A DNA stretch of 17,247 nt from Deltaproteobacteria bacterium (GTDB lineage: Bacteria; Bdellovibrionota_B; Oligoflexia; Oligoflexales; Bog-1112), in contig JACPKR010000045.1 in the NCBI GenBank assembly GCA_016186945.1, positions 1 to 17,247 of the forward strand. The letters run 5' to 3'. Within the stretch, counting starts at the first letter, position 1, and each line of letters starts with the position of its first letter. The position numbers and the translations under genes are program-made. The notes beneath the pieces were generated by a model, which worked only from the letters and a program-made list of their open reading frames with translations, made no database searches and was not told the origin of the DNA. Shown piece by piece: positions 1,578-13,118 of this stretch.

Positions 1578-2594
1578 TTAGGTGCTATTTATCTGCTTTT
1601 CTAGGCTTTCAAGCCCATTTGCAATCTCAGTGAACGTGGGTCGGGATCCAAAAAACATATCACCCATTTTCTCATAGTCATCTTCAAGCTTCTCTAAAAG
1701 CTCCTTGTTTGGGGCCAACCTCAGCGTTCCTACTTTGGCTTCGTCGTATTCTGCCCACGCTGCATGATAAAAAAGATTCTTGTGTTGAGCTACGGCAGCT
1801 AATAACTCTATCTGTTTAACAGCCGATTTCCCGTATGAGGATTTGGCGAGCATGTAAAGGTCATAATAGTGACGAGATTGATCGGGACGTAGCCTCTTTT
1901 GACCACCATAGAAAATGGAATGCAGGATAGTGGCTTTTTCCCAAAAAGTACGTTCCGCTTTAAGCACAGTGACTTTTGCAACAGCGTCTTTGACGCCCTT
2001 TTGAAGAGCCTTCGATAGATAACTTTCGACCTCAGCGATCTGACTTGGCCAAGTTTCCGCTCTTGCTCCAAATTCGATTCGAACCGCAGGTTGAAAAGAT
2101 GTCCGCCTCCAACCCTTTCCAGTAGTGGGAAATTCGAAAAGTAGCGTCATTGAATCTTTTGAATCAAGCCTCAATTGCCAACGCTTTTGTGCGCCGAGAG
2201 TTCTGTCAAGCTCAGTTTTCAATGTAGGTTGAATGACCTCCTGGATTCTTTTTGCGCAAACCCTGTTTAGTTCCTCGAGCGCTGTTTCCCTCTTGCTGCG
2301 TGATCCTGCCTGCTTAGGGTCGTTGAAACCTTCAAAGCCCAGATGTTTGCGATCTATCGAAAGATCAATATCCTCGGAAAAGCGATCGATAAGCTTGTAG
2401 ACCTTCGATAGAGATGTACCACCCTTAAATGTGAACCACTCGTGCATAGGGGCTTTGGAAAATAGGATCCTGAGGATCAACGTTACCCAGAAGTCCTTTT
2501 CCACCATCGCCACACCCAATCCAGACTCTTGGCTTGCTTGATCAAAATAGACTTGTCTCTCTTGATTTGTTTTTGCAGCTAACTCAAACATCAT
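1578..2594 (-). CDS. abiEii: AbiEii-type nucleotidyltransferase toxin
   Basis: This is the toxin half of a type IV AbiE toxin-antitoxin/abortive-infection system (338 aa). The nucleotidyltransferase hallmarks are visible: FKGGTSLSKVY with the GG(T/S) motif at about 58-61, SEDIDLS with Asp75 and Asp77, the family's ERTFWEK block at 214-220, and RHYYDLYML near 241. Known AbiEii/MenT enzymes transfer nucleotides (for MenT, onto tRNA) and slow growth during phage attack; that activity here is inferred from the family. I chose the ATG at 2594 because it overlaps the end of the antitoxin gene by 11 nt after a purine-rich AAGAAGAAAG. The ORF could extend upstream to 2660, but that adds a basic leader translated entirely inside the antitoxin gene. 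The overlap implies translational coupling. Confidence 0.92.
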   Translation of the reverse strand: MMFELAAKTNQERQVYFDQASQESGLGVAMVEKDFWVTLILRILFSKAPMHEWFTFKGGTSLSKVYKLIDRFSEDIDLSIDRKHLGFEGFNDPKQAGSRSKRETALEELNRVCAKRIQEVIQPTLKTELDRTLGAQKRWQLRLDSKDSMTLLFEFPTTGKGWRRTSFQPAVRIEFGARAETWPSQIAEVESYLSKALQKGVKDAVAKVTVLKAERTFWEKATILHSIFYGGQKRLRPDQSRHYYDLYMLAKSSYGKSAVKQIELLAAVAQHKNLFYHAAWAEYDEAKVGTLRLAPNKELLEKLEDDYEKMGDMFFGSRPTFTEIANGLESLEKQINST

Positions 2595-3204
2595 TTTCTT
2601 TCTTCTTAATAAGATAACGAAAGATGTCAGCGATCCACGCTGGAGATGCGTACCGGACATCTGCTCTTAATTGTTTGATTTGTTCATCCGAAATTCGCTT
2701 CCGGAAGCCAGACAACTCCTTTTTCCCAATATTCCCTTTACCTATATACCGTAAAGCCTGAATCAAGAGACCCGAAAAACGTCCTGCTGTTGCCATGTTA
2801 CGGAGCGTTGTATTCCTTAGCTCGATCGTGATTTTGCCAACTTTAACAATTCGGGCTTTGCGATCGGTTAAGTACACAATTTTCGCCGGAACCTGATTCG
2901 AAAATCCGAGTATGTTCGCAGCATATGCACCCGTCGGCTGAATTTTCGCCTTATCCTTTCTTGCAAGTGCACGAGCTATGTCTTCTGGAGGGGCTGCTAA
3001 TTTTCCAAGTGCTTTGTGAATCCGTGGATAGTCGTAAATTCCCCTTGTGAGTCGTCGAATGATCTTCTTTTCAGTAAGACGTGAAAGTGCTGTATGAATT
3101 GCTATATCACTACCTAAATCGGCAAGATCCGCGGGAGAGAAAACCCAACCCCTTTTGTGGCCATAAACTCTACTTTTTACCTTATTTTCAACAGATTGTG
3201 TCAA
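2584..3204 (-). CDS. abiEi: AbiEi-type antitoxin, DUF6088 family
   Basis: This is a 206-aa partner of the nucleotidyltransferase. The N-terminal third is a winged helix (GWVFSPADLADLGS, then TALSRLTEKKIIRRLTRGIYDYP), the signature of DUF6088/AbiEi-like antitoxins. The C-terminal part (GKITIELRNTT, then YIGKGNIGKKELSG) is the usual antitoxin domain. In studied AbiE systems the antitoxin represses its own operon by binding inverted repeats in front of it. A long palindrome sits 17 nt upstream here (3221-3251), which fits. The start codon is TTG: an in-frame TAG lies two codons upstream and the next in-frame ATG falls far inside the conserved region. Only a weak AGG is available as ribosome binding site, so translation may be deliberately low. 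It overlaps the toxin by 11 nt. Confidence 0.9.
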   Translation of the reverse strand: MTQSVENKVKSRVYGHKRGWVFSPADLADLGSDIAIHTALSRLTEKKIIRRLTRGIYDYPRIHKALGKLAAPPEDIARALARKDKAKIQPTGAYAANILGFSNQVPAKIVYLTDRKARIVKVGKITIELRNTTLRNMATAGRFSGLLIQALRYIGKGNIGKKELSGFRKRISDEQIKQLRADVRYASPAWIADIFRYLIKKKENDV

Positions 3205-9955: not shown

Positions 9956-12262
9956 ATGCAAAACGTACGCAAAACCCCCCAAGAATGGGCAACATTGTTT
10001 GCTCGGCGAGGTTGGCCGGTAATCCCCATTCATTACCCTATCGGAAAAGACCAATGTAGCTGCCGCAAGCCCGTATGTGCCAGCACGGCAAAACACCCGA
10101 TGACACCAAACGGACTGAAAAACGCGAGCAGAGGTGCTGCGACTGTGTTGCACTGGTGGGAAGAGACACCGAATGCTAACATCGGCATCCTTACCGGTCA
10201 GGAGTCCGGGCTTGTGGTTCTGGATATTGACCCAAGACACGGGGGAGATGAGTCACTTGCAAAGCTAGAATCTGAGAATAGGAGACTGCCCGAAACCTTG
10301 AAGGTCAAGACTGGTGGCAACGGTTGGCATTATTACTTTCGGCACCCCGGGGGAAAGATTCCCAACAAAGCTAACCTGCGTAGCGGTCTCGATATTAGAG
10401 GCGACGGTGGTTACATCATTGCGCCACCAAGTACCCACGCAAATCTTCAGACCTACATGTGGGTTGAGCCAGACCTGGAACCTGCGCCCCTTCCCGAATG
10501 GCTCCATAGCTTGATGATTAGCCCAGCTAAGTCTGCACCAAAAACGATATCAGCGAATGAACTGCTGACTGTTGGGTTTTCGGAAGGCACTCGTAACGGT
10601 TCGCTCATGAGTGTTGCAGGCTTTCTTAAGTCGAAGGGACTTGACCAGGGTGCTATCACCAAAGCTTTGGCAAGCTTGAACCAAAACCTATGTCATCCCC
10701 CTTTGTCAGCCGACGAGGTTCTTCAGATTGCCACAAGTGTCGGTCGTTACGAGGAGAAGGAATGGTCAGAACCAAGCGATCTTCCCTCTGTCGTTACCGC
10801 TCCGGAAATGAGCCTGGAAATGCTACCTTCGACTTTGCAGGCGTGGTGCTCAGATATTGCCGAGCGCATGCAAGTCCCCCTTGAGTTCGCAGCCGGTCCG
10901 GCAATTGTTACGATCGCATCGCTTTTGGGTCGAAAAGTGGTCATCTACCCAAAAACAAAAGATGATTGGCAAGTGATTCCTAACTTATGGGGATGCTTGA
11001 TCGCTCCCCCTGGGTCCATGAAATCTCCAGCTATGTCTGCTGTACTCAAACCGCTTCATAATCTCGCAGTGAAAGCACGCGGGGAATTCCTGGAAGAAAG
11101 CAAACGAATTGAAGCTGCAAAAGCCGTGGCTAAGGCAGAAATCGACGCCTTGAAAGACGCACTAAAAGCATCGGTCAGACAGGGAAATCAGACAGCAATC
11201 TCACAGAAAAAAGAAGCTCTTGCGAACGCAATCAAGAAGTTCGATGAAACCTGTCAGATAACCGAGCGACGTTATCTGATGAACGATCCAACGATTGAAA
11301 AGCTTCTCACCATCATCCAGGAGAATCCCCAGGGCCTTCTGCTTTATCGCGACGAACTAAGCGGTTGGCTCGAAACGATGTACAAATCAGGCCGCGAAGG
11401 GGATCGGGAATTTTTTCTCGAAGCCTGGAACGGTGACACACCTTACTCGATGGATCGCATCAGCAGGGGAAGCGTCTTCGTTGACGGTCTCTGCCTTTCG
11501 GTTCTTGGAGGACTTCAACCGAGCAAATTTCAGTCTTATGTCGCATCACTGGTAAAAGGTGGTAAAAGTGACGACGGTCTGCTCCAACGATTTCAAATCC
11601 TGCTGTGCCCTGAAAAACGCAAAGTCTGGAAGAAGATCGATCGGGCACCTAACACAGACGCAGCAAAACAGGTGGAAACCATCTTCAACGCATTAGCCAA
11701 GCTCCCCCTCCCCCGACGCAAGGAAGCTGAGATTGAACGCCTAAGCATTCGTTTTACGTCATCCGCTCAGGAGATCGCCGACAGGTGGCGCGAAAACCTG
11801 GAAACCCGTTTGCTATCTGGTACGATTTCGCCCGTACTGGAGTCTCACCTCTCGAAATACCGTTCGCTCATGCCTAGCCTCGCTTTGATCTTTGAAGTTA
11901 CGGACAGTTTATGTGAAGGAGACTTTCCCTGCGAACTCCGTAAGGAGTCAACAGACCTGGCTATTAAATGGTGCGAGTTCCTCGAAAAGCACGCACGCAA
12001 AGCTTATGGGGAATTCCTAGAGCCAGACATCGTTGCTGGCCGGTGTCTGCTCGCCAAAATCAAGGCTGGCGCCGTCAAAGATTTCGACCGTTGCCGAGAC
12101 ATCTACCGTCACGGTTGGAAGGGTCTCGCCACTCAAGAAGAGTTGGAAGGTGGGATCACAACTCTGCGCAACTTTGGGTGGGTGAGAACAGAAATGATAT
12201 TCCCACCCACAGGCCGACGTTTTGAGATCGTCCGCCTTCACCCCTCCTTACGATTGGTCTAG
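9956..12262 (+). CDS. prim-pol / PriCT / DUF3987 replication protein of a mobile element
   Basis: This 768-aa multidomain replication protein starts with a bifunctional primase-polymerase domain (about 5-190): the Cys/His cluster around CSCRKPVC and KHP, LDIDPRHGG with Asp90 and Asp92, HYYFRHPGG with His125, and LDIRGDGGYIIAPPS with Asp146. A PriCT-like helical segment spans about 205-265 (GTRNGSLMSVAGFLKSKG). A DUF3987 ATPase-like domain spans about 290-690, with P-loop APPGSMKS (350-357) and Walker B-like LLLYRDELSGW (Asp466, Glu467), interrupted by a coiled-coil insert (370-430). Such proteins prime and unwind DNA for phages, satellites and integrative elements. GGAGG lies 5 nt before the ATG. 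It is divergent from the XRE repressor; no integrase is in the window, so the element is partial or minimal. Confidence 0.9.
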   Translation: MQNVRKTPQEWATLFARRGWPVIPIHYPIGKDQCSCRKPVCASTAKHPMTPNGLKNASRGAATVLHWWEETPNANIGILTGQESGLVVLDIDPRHGGDESLAKLESENRRLPETLKVKTGGNGWHYYFRHPGGKIPNKANLRSGLDIRGDGGYIIAPPSTHANLQTYMWVEPDLEPAPLPEWLHSLMISPAKSAPKTISANELLTVGFSEGTRNGSLMSVAGFLKSKGLDQGAITKALASLNQNLCHPPLSADEVLQIATSVGRYEEKEWSEPSDLPSVVTAPEMSLEMLPSTLQAWCSDIAERMQVPLEFAAGPAIVTIASLLGRKVVIYPKTKDDWQVIPNLWGCLIAPPGSMKSPAMSAVLKPLHNLAVKARGEFLEESKRIEAAKAVAKAEIDALKDALKASVRQGNQTAISQKKEALANAIKKFDETCQITERRYLMNDPTIEKLLTIIQENPQGLLLYRDELSGWLETMYKSGREGDREFFLEAWNGDTPYSMDRISRGSVFVDGLCLSVLGGLQPSKFQSYVASLVKGGKSDDGLLQRFQILLCPEKRKVWKKIDRAPNTDAAKQVETIFNALAKLPLPRRKEAEIERLSIRFTSSAQEIADRWRENLETRLLSGTISPVLESHLSKYRSLMPSLALIFEVTDSLCEGDFPCELRKESTDLAIKWCEFLEKHARKAYGEFLEPDIVAGRCLLAKIKAGAVKDFDRCRDIYRHGWKGLATQEELEGGITTLRNFGWVRTEMIFPPTGRRFEIVRLHPSLRLV

Positions 12263-12285
12263 GGCTTCTGGTGAGAGAAGCCCTA
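12260..12285 (+). terminator. 10-bp hairpin on the prim-pol stop codon
   Basis: TAGGGCTTCT and AGAAGCCCTA form a perfect 10-bp stem with a 6-nt loop, and the TAG stop codon is its first three bases. There is no T-run after it, so it is not a standard intrinsic terminator. It may stabilise the mRNA 3' end, pause transcription, or be part of the structured element that follows. Confidence 0.5.
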
Positions 12286-12316
12286 AGGACCGAGATACTC
12301 TCAAAATTGTACCATG

Positions 12317-12332
12317 TAACACGCTTGTGTTA
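12317..12332. repeat. small perfect dyad TAACAC-GCTT-GTGTTA
   Basis: Two 6-bp arms around a 4-nt centre lie in the convergent gap, between the stop-codon hairpin and the larger folded region. It could be a protein-binding site or a minor hairpin. Confidence 0.4.
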
Positions 12333-12368
12333 AACGCAATGTGAAATTCAGTCGTAATGCGTAAGCCA

Positions 12369-12491
12369 GTTGGGGCAAGGAAGAGAGTTTGAGAGAAAAC
12401 TACGCAGTTGGTGTCTCTCAAAATCCTTCAGCGAAGGGCTTTCTTCAGGGGAACCATCTGCGAAGTTTCCCCTGAACCCCTCCTTGCCAAC
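12369..12491. ncRNA. highly structured element: closing helix enclosing three hairpins (candidate RNA or DNA site)
   Basis: A closing helix pairs GGCAAGGA (12374-12381) with TCCTTGCC (12481-12488), extended past a two-G bulge by GTT (12369-12371) with AAC (12489-12491). Inside are hairpin 1 (TTTGAGAGA 12388-12396 with TCTCTCAAA 12414-12422), hairpin 2 (CCTTC-AGC-GAAGG, 12425-12437) and hairpin 3 (TTCAGGGGAA 12444-12453 with TTCCCCTGAA 12467-12476). Loop 1 has CGCAG (12403-12407) and loop 3 has CTGCG (12458-12462), which could kiss. A run of six T follows at 12513-12518, overlapping the end of the opposing GNAT gene, so a plus-strand transcript could end there. It lies between convergent genes and so is not a leader of either. 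The pairing is directly visible; whether it acts as RNA or as DNA (origin, recombination site) is unknown. Confidence 0.55.
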
Positions 12492-12509
12492 GCTAGGCTA
12501 TCCTCAAGG

Positions 12510-13067
12510 CTATTTTTTAACAAACAGAGCCATCAGAATGCTATCGACATACTTTTTCTCCGAATACTTTATGTCCCGTTTTATTATTCCTTCTTCAACA
12601 AAACCAAGCTTTTCGTAAAGCACTTTAGCGCGATCGTTGTCGTGGTGAACAGTCAAACATAATTTTTCGATTGTATTGTGATCTGTTGCCCACTCGATTA
12701 CAGTCGTTAGCAAGAATTCCCCGATTCCCAACCCCCTAAATTCTTTGGCGACCCCCAACCCCAAGCGGCCAGTATGGGAAATCCTCCTTCGAGATCCAGC
12801 TTCAAAATCGCAGACTCCGACCAATTTGTTGTCCGTTTCTGCGACCAGTAAGAGGTTGTTGGTATTACTGCTATACTTTTCGATCCATTTTATTTCTTCT
12901 GAAAGATCAGAAGGGATTTCATCAACATCTGTCATGGTATAAATCTTTTCAGCAGCAATCGCTTTCCCCAAGTCTATAAGATGCTTCGCGTCATCTTTTG
13001 AAGCACTGCGGATAGTAACGTTCTCGCCATTCTTGGCTTTTAAGGTTTTGCCCTTGTAAAAACCCAT
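12510..13067 (-). CDS. GNAT family N-acetyltransferase (RimJ/RimL-like)
   Basis: This 185-aa acetyltransferase has a good GNAT sequence: VTIRSASKDDAKHLIDLG at the N-terminus, LLLVAETDNKLVGVCDFEAG for strands 2-4, RLGLGVAKEFRGLGIG with the acetyl-CoA loop RGLGIG (111-116), then NDRAKVLYEKLGFVEEG, the motif B region. Family members acetylate protein N-termini, aminoglycosides or small amines; the substrate here is unknown. I chose the ATG at 13067, 6 nt after a run of seven G. The ORF extends to 13118, but that overlaps the leader and would put the G-run inside coding sequence. It follows the hydrolase gene by 51 nt on the same strand and is probably the last gene of the sensory operon. Its stop codon is next to the structured element. 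Confidence 0.88.
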   Translation of the reverse strand: MGFYKGKTLKAKNGENVTIRSASKDDAKHLIDLGKAIAAEKIYTMTDVDEIPSDLSEEIKWIEKYSSNTNNLLLVAETDNKLVGVCDFEAGSRRRISHTGRLGLGVAKEFRGLGIGEFLLTTVIEWATDHNTIEKLCLTVHHDNDRAKVLYEKLGFVEEGIIKRDIKYSEKKYVDSILMALFVKK

Positions 13068-13118
13068 GATAGACCCCCCCTTTTTCTTTCTTATTGAAGA
13101 GTATTTTGCTTGATTCAC

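Follow-up and report, generated by a model that had tools for sequence, protein, structure and literature searches.

A multi-hairpin segment behind a prim-pol gene is probably a degenerate copy of a dispersed mobile element that combines REP-like units with MITE-type ends

The closest described relatives of the repeat reported here are the REPs, short and abundant extragenic imperfect palindromes of 20–45 nt with an unpaired conserved head, which fall into GTAG and CGTC families and are associated with RAYT proteins (PMC2817692, PMC3733652). They occur in hundreds of copies, as single units and as inverted dimers, are mostly intergenic with a bias towards gaps between convergent genes, and have a narrow host range. 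In REPINs the mobile form is an inverted doublet able to adopt either a long hairpin or a clover fold, and singlets are decayed remnants (PMC3116915). Bacterial MITEs such as RUP, NEMIS/Correia, Nezha and ERIC are non-coding elements of 70–300 bp with inverted ends of 15–30 bp, a target duplication and a stable fold.

The window analysed here is a stretch of 17,247 nucleotides from a bacterium of the order Oligoflexales, and contains a strongly folding segment between two genes. We consider that this segment is probably a decayed copy of a mobile element that is dispersed and non-coding, with two REP-like units placed heads outward inside a MITE-type element bounded by 25-bp terminal inverted repeats (TIRs).

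The window copy and its family

The segment is 123 bases long (12369–12491, GTAATGCGTAAGCCAGTTGGGGCAAGGA...TCCTTGCCAAC). It had been described in an earlier note as lying between convergent genes, and this is borne out by its neighbours: a Prim-Pol/PriCT_1/DUF3987 gene on the left (9956–12262, plus strand) and a GNAT acetyltransferase gene on the right (12510–13118, minus strand). The closing helix and three hairpins drawn in the same note are all present. In the closing helix, as identified from sequence and folding, the left TIR end and head box (12369–12381) face an inverted head box (12481–12491): GTT at 12369–12371 pairs with AAC at 12489–12491, and after a GG bulge GGCAAGGA (12374–12381) pairs with TCCTTGCC (12481–12488). 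The enclosed hairpins lie at approximately 12388–12422, 12425–12437 and 12445–12475. The predicted folding energies of the 123 bases are −49.7 kcal/mol on the plus strand and −52.4 kcal/mol on the minus strand (z −3.6 and −4.5), which none of 200 dinucleotide shuffles reached on either strand.

The element itself begins upstream of the segment as first drawn, with a left TIR, GTAATGCGTAAGCCAGTTGGGGCAA, at 12354–12378 on the plus strand; aligned with the consensus of full-length copies, it shows one difference. REP-like unit 1 (12375–12420, plus strand) has a GCAAGGA head box and an imperfect hairpin with apex AACTACGCAGTTGG, in which one stem pair is broken (GTGTC instead of GTTTC). A small hairpin in the spacer, CCTTC-AGC-GAAGG, is seen in the sequence at 12425–12437, and is followed by unit 2 (12445–12487, minus strand), inverted with respect to unit 1 and consisting of GCAAGGAGGGG and a hairpin with apex AACTTCGCAGATGG. 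The covariance model R1 gives 51.6 bits (E 1.5e-11) for unit 1 and 66.2 bits (E 4e-15) for unit 2; both units were in the model's own building set, so the scores locate the units rather than prove their membership. The right TIR, expected at 12488–12512, is eroded or replaced, as judged by eye against the consensus TTGCCCCAAGTGGCTTACGCATTAC, and no target duplication is visible around the copy. The window copy is therefore old.

The closing helix is the pairing of the two head boxes, and stems 1 and 3 are the hairpins of the two units. These are features of the family, while the middle hairpin is a feature of the spacer: it is missing from the nearest copy (L002) and has a variant form in one other old copy (L003). 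As in a REPIN, the two units form an inverted pair, spanning about 113 bp, for which both a long hairpin and a clover are possible folds; the clover-like layout is what an inverted pair of units gives, and a similar form was drawn for REPINs by Bertels and Rainey (PMC3116915). The window copy is one of an older subfamily whose members have the canonical apex in both hairpins. The copies closest to it are L002 and the old element at L003, and among these a compensatory change of T-A to C-G distinguishes the right stems.

Copies were counted in the source genome (G000; 2.66 Mb in 76 contigs, 91% complete), using pattern counts over the whole genome and copy statistics from about 15% of it, read as stretches (400 kb). 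A blastn search with 12300–12520 as query gave 53 matches in this genome, and the loop motif ACTNCGCAGNTGGTNNC, allowing at most one mismatch, occurs at 205 + 219 = 424 sites, compared with none for the reversed pattern; the 400 kb contain 72 strict copies. The window element thus belongs to a large family spread over the genome. With open reading frames of 100 codons or more taken as a proxy for genes, 51 of the 72 copies are intergenic, though intergenic space makes up only 15% of the bases. Nineteen of 46 copies in gaps lie between convergent genes, where 21% of the gap bases are found. Siting in convergent gaps is thus a general habit of the family, and the same preference has been reported for REPs (PMC3733652).

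A covariance-model search of 58 genomes of the phylum found at least 110 unit matches in the source genome, at least 105 in G005 and at least 102 in G007, the latter two being MAGs of a sister family. The other 55 genomes gave none, including G001, the sole other genome of the genus (75% complete). Among 84,980 GTDB species, the version of the unit with a GGGG stem was found only in the MAGs JAGNWK (Oligoflexales) and CANIBL (Deltaproteobacteria in its title), and the unit was not found in viral contigs. The window element has no match in Rfam, either at the gathering threshold or at relaxed thresholds, and no tRNA or tmRNA was found in it. In the open-access literature no description of such repeats in this bacterial group was found, which is weak evidence of absence. 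The earlier note knew no family with this architecture next to prim-pol/DUF3987 genes, and none turned up in the papers searched; the hairpin type is previously unrecorded.

The inverted-repeat element and what may move it

Both 25-bp TIRs, GTAATGCGTAAGCCACTTGGGGCAA and its inverse, are present in 43 copies. Forty of these measure 143–169 bp, and the three longer matches are neighbouring or nested copies. Exact target duplications of 8 bp flank 12 of the 43, exact duplications of 9 bp flank four, and three more agree at 7/8; swapped flanks agree at 7/8 or better in 0.19% of cases. Half of the copies with both ends have no duplication. One nested insertion was observed directly: a young element lies inside an older unit with GATGGCAA on either side, and removing it in thought restores the older unit, GATGGCAAGGAGGGG. 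In the commonest subfamily the canonical apex is found in the left hairpin but not in the right. In the common 146-bp element of the source genome, the right-hairpin apex is replaced by one of two versions, GCGACGGTTCCCTCGC or GCGACGCTTCACTCGC.

These elements are thus short, non-coding and stably folded, with inverted ends and target duplications of fixed size, as in the bacterial MITEs named above; the window copy keeps the left end only. They differ from those MITEs in that the interior is an inverted pair of hairpins, whose units are also found alone, and in that no parent IS was found. The duplications and inverted ends together point to insertion by a DDE-type transposase, either cut-and-paste or replicative. 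An autonomous parent IS would carry the ends GTAATGCGTAAGCC. No autonomous element with the same ends was found: in the source genome, IS256-type and DDE_Tnp_1 genes occur only as fragments without MITE ends, and the stretches read contain no long element with inverted ends and a duplication. This result is not final, because the genome is only 91% complete. The family resembles IS66 in its GTAA start and 8-bp duplications (checked on the IS66 of a relative, L160), but the resemblance goes no further: some duplications are of 9 bp, and beyond its start the inverted repeat is unrelated. IS66 was rejected as the parent, since its gene is absent from the source genome and the IS66 genes of relatives do not have these ends. 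Unusual inverted-repeat ends at L179, considered as a trace of an autonomous element, were also rejected, being a mere variant of the normal end at one site.

A different mover would be implied if the units were classical REPs, mobilized by a RAYT that is missing from the assembly. The units are indeed short, abundant and extragenic imperfect palindromes with a head box, occurring singly and as dimers, and G005 has several Y1 genes of RAYT size (about 252 aa). However, the conserved head is GCAAGGA, neither GTAG nor CGTC; G000 and G007 yielded no Y1 gene of that size; and in all three genomes the Y1_Tnp genes, including those of G005, are not flanked by units, whereas a RAYT belonging to REPs would be expected between two inverted copies. 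In addition, many units are part of elements flanked by target duplications, and RAYT/REP movement is not known to produce duplications of 8–9 bp. A missing RAYT is therefore a rather unlikely explanation. Because there is no link to a RAYT, we call the unit REP-like and do not assign it to the GTAG or CGTC families.

The hairpin unit

In copies from three genomes, the unit of about 45 nt has a constant order: GCAAGGA, a purine tract, and a hairpin with apex AAC-T-n-C-GCA-G-n'-T-GGTT. Covariation was analysed in 31 distinct units against 500 shuffles. The hairpin cells are 98.2% paired (81.6% in shuffles), 60 cells are compensatory (14.5 in shuffles) and the covariation score is 0.443 (0.125 in shuffles), with no shuffle reaching either of the last two values. 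The stems are thus kept by compensatory changes, which was the test of pairing set by the earlier note. Sliding the 3' partner by one column leaves a pairing of only 51–63%, and slides of 1–3 columns collapse the signal. The n/n' pair shows all four Watson–Crick forms. These counts are inflated by the common descent of the copies; nevertheless, the presence of different stems in three genomes is hard to explain without selection for pairing. An alternative pairing, between the purine tract and the 3' arm, is a small effect that is significant only in the source genome and over the pooled set.

Selection could have acted on the hairpins as RNA, in the form of bidirectional terminators or mRNA-stabilising ends, with their dispersal incidental. 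The strength of the hairpins and the enrichment between convergent genes would suit such a role, and in other genomes most REPs lie downstream of a gene (PMC3733652). RNA pairing should tolerate wobble, but among 1078 cells G.T (20 cells) is not commoner than A.C (25 cells), which suggests that pairing is selected in DNA rather than in RNA. Moreover, no U-tract follows the units in the source genome, the two orientations relative to codirectional genes are about equal (12 and 8 copies), the head box is conserved although it lies outside the hairpin, and terminator-like sites in this region are not above shuffles. We regard a function as RNA as unlikely. Two specific identities were also rejected. 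Rho-independent terminators, with a GC stem and a T tract, gave two weak sites where 1.5 were expected. An integron attC site requires RYYYAAC at the outer left and GTTRRRY at the outer right, which is the opposite of the GTT on the left and AAC on the right seen here.

Strict Watson–Crick compensation without wobble intermediates could also be produced by template switching at quasi-palindromes, that is, by mutational correction and not by selection on the hairpin. Such correction would be expected to remove mismatches in the middle of the palindrome, but these persist, A.G in 93 of 98 units and T.T in 96 of 98, making template switching a very unlikely source of the pattern. The unit probably works as a DNA hairpin that is recognised by a protein.

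The sampled stretches contain 27 units without recognisable terminal repeats. Within the unit their identity to the consensus is 94.7%, with 21 of the 27 matching 44 or 45 of 45 consensus positions, whereas over the 21 bases directly upstream only 34% match the inverted repeat. Because of these sharp edges and near-perfect cores, the solitary units are not simply worn MITEs; it seems that a unit can be copied, or maintained, independently of the larger element. Some of the 27 retain downstream family sequence, so somewhat fewer are truly isolated. This is unlike the situation in REPINs: single units here are about as conserved as those in full elements, and doublets of canonical units are rare, the 400 kb with their 77 units containing three tail-to-tail pairs. 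In G007, nine pairs of units with heads inward, the opposite of the arrangement in the window, lie 127–486 bp apart and flank another repeat, so that the unit again looks like a portable part.

At five G007 loci (L120, L123, L126, L127 and L128), the second repeat between the units is rich in hairpins (AAAATCGCAG...CTGCGATTT, GGCCCGACGGGTCACAAATC), and it is possible that these pairs and the second repeat make up a separate composite mobile element. At four loci of the source genome (L101, L103, L104 and L105), whole units are directly preceded by short tandem pieces of the unit's 5' part (for example GGCACGGAGGTGGTTTGGAG, followed by a full unit), a possible footprint of unit copying.

The prim-pol locus and a proposed origin

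That the segment is instead a structured RNA specific to this locus, or a replication or single-strand origin used by the prim-pol protein, was suggested by its stable fold on both strands and by the nearby gene, but can hardly be maintained, given hundreds of copies elsewhere in the genome, the absence of the element and its paired arms downstream of the prim-pol orthologues in G001 (68% identity), G006 (62%) and G005 (59%), the last of which has many copies elsewhere, and the presence of at least 100 units in G007, where no prim-pol homologue was found at E 1e-20. The earlier note had itself stated that homologous loci lacking the arms would speak against a locus-specific role; a link with prim-pol/DUF3987 genes is thus not sustained, and both a small RNA and an origin are unlikely. 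Its remaining suggestion, a recombination site, comes closest in spirit, as the element is mobile DNA.

A perfect palindrome, AGGGCTTCT-GGTGAG-AGAAGCCCT, lies at 12261–12284, directly on the prim-pol stop codon. The orthologue in G001 has a similar palindrome (AGGGCTT...AAGCCCT) at the same place, so the structure conserved at the 3' end of prim-pol is this palindrome and not the repeat element. Further prim-pol/DUF3987 homologues, with 37–50% identity and in some cases fragmentary, are present on contigs C3, C14, C50, C24 and C16 of the source genome, and at L229 and L234 the frame downstream of the homologue resembles a tyrosine integrase by eye, which hints that several related elements, or remnants of them, are integrated in this genome. 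Also by eye, two overlapping minus-strand genes at 1578–3204 of the window resemble an AbiEii/AbiEi toxin–antitoxin pair.

We therefore return to the mobile element as the best explanation of the segment. The elements with inverted repeats would have been spread by a DDE transposase acting in trans and making 8–9-bp duplications. A putative protein would recognise the unit as a hairpin of DNA, probably in single-stranded form, and through this protein the unit may spread or be kept alone, as RAYT proteins do for REPs. The copy behind prim-pol would have landed in a convergent intergenic gap, where it would be harmless.

More tentatively, the unit may represent a third tagged class of REP-like sequence, defined by a GCAAGGA head, A.G and T.T mismatches and a GCA triloop, and so far confined to a few Oligoflexales-type bacteria. 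In this proposal, a single hairpin of about 45 nt would be mobile by means of a non-RAYT enzyme, and would in addition have been taken up by a MITE, which would also serve as its carrier.

The locus is a caution that a striking fold beside an interesting gene may be a dispersed repeat. The absence of wobble pairs makes the family a clear case for telling selection on DNA hairpins from selection on RNA. If a single unit does move without a RAYT, this would bear on what mobilizes those REP families, such as the CGTC REPs, that lack a dedicated transposase.
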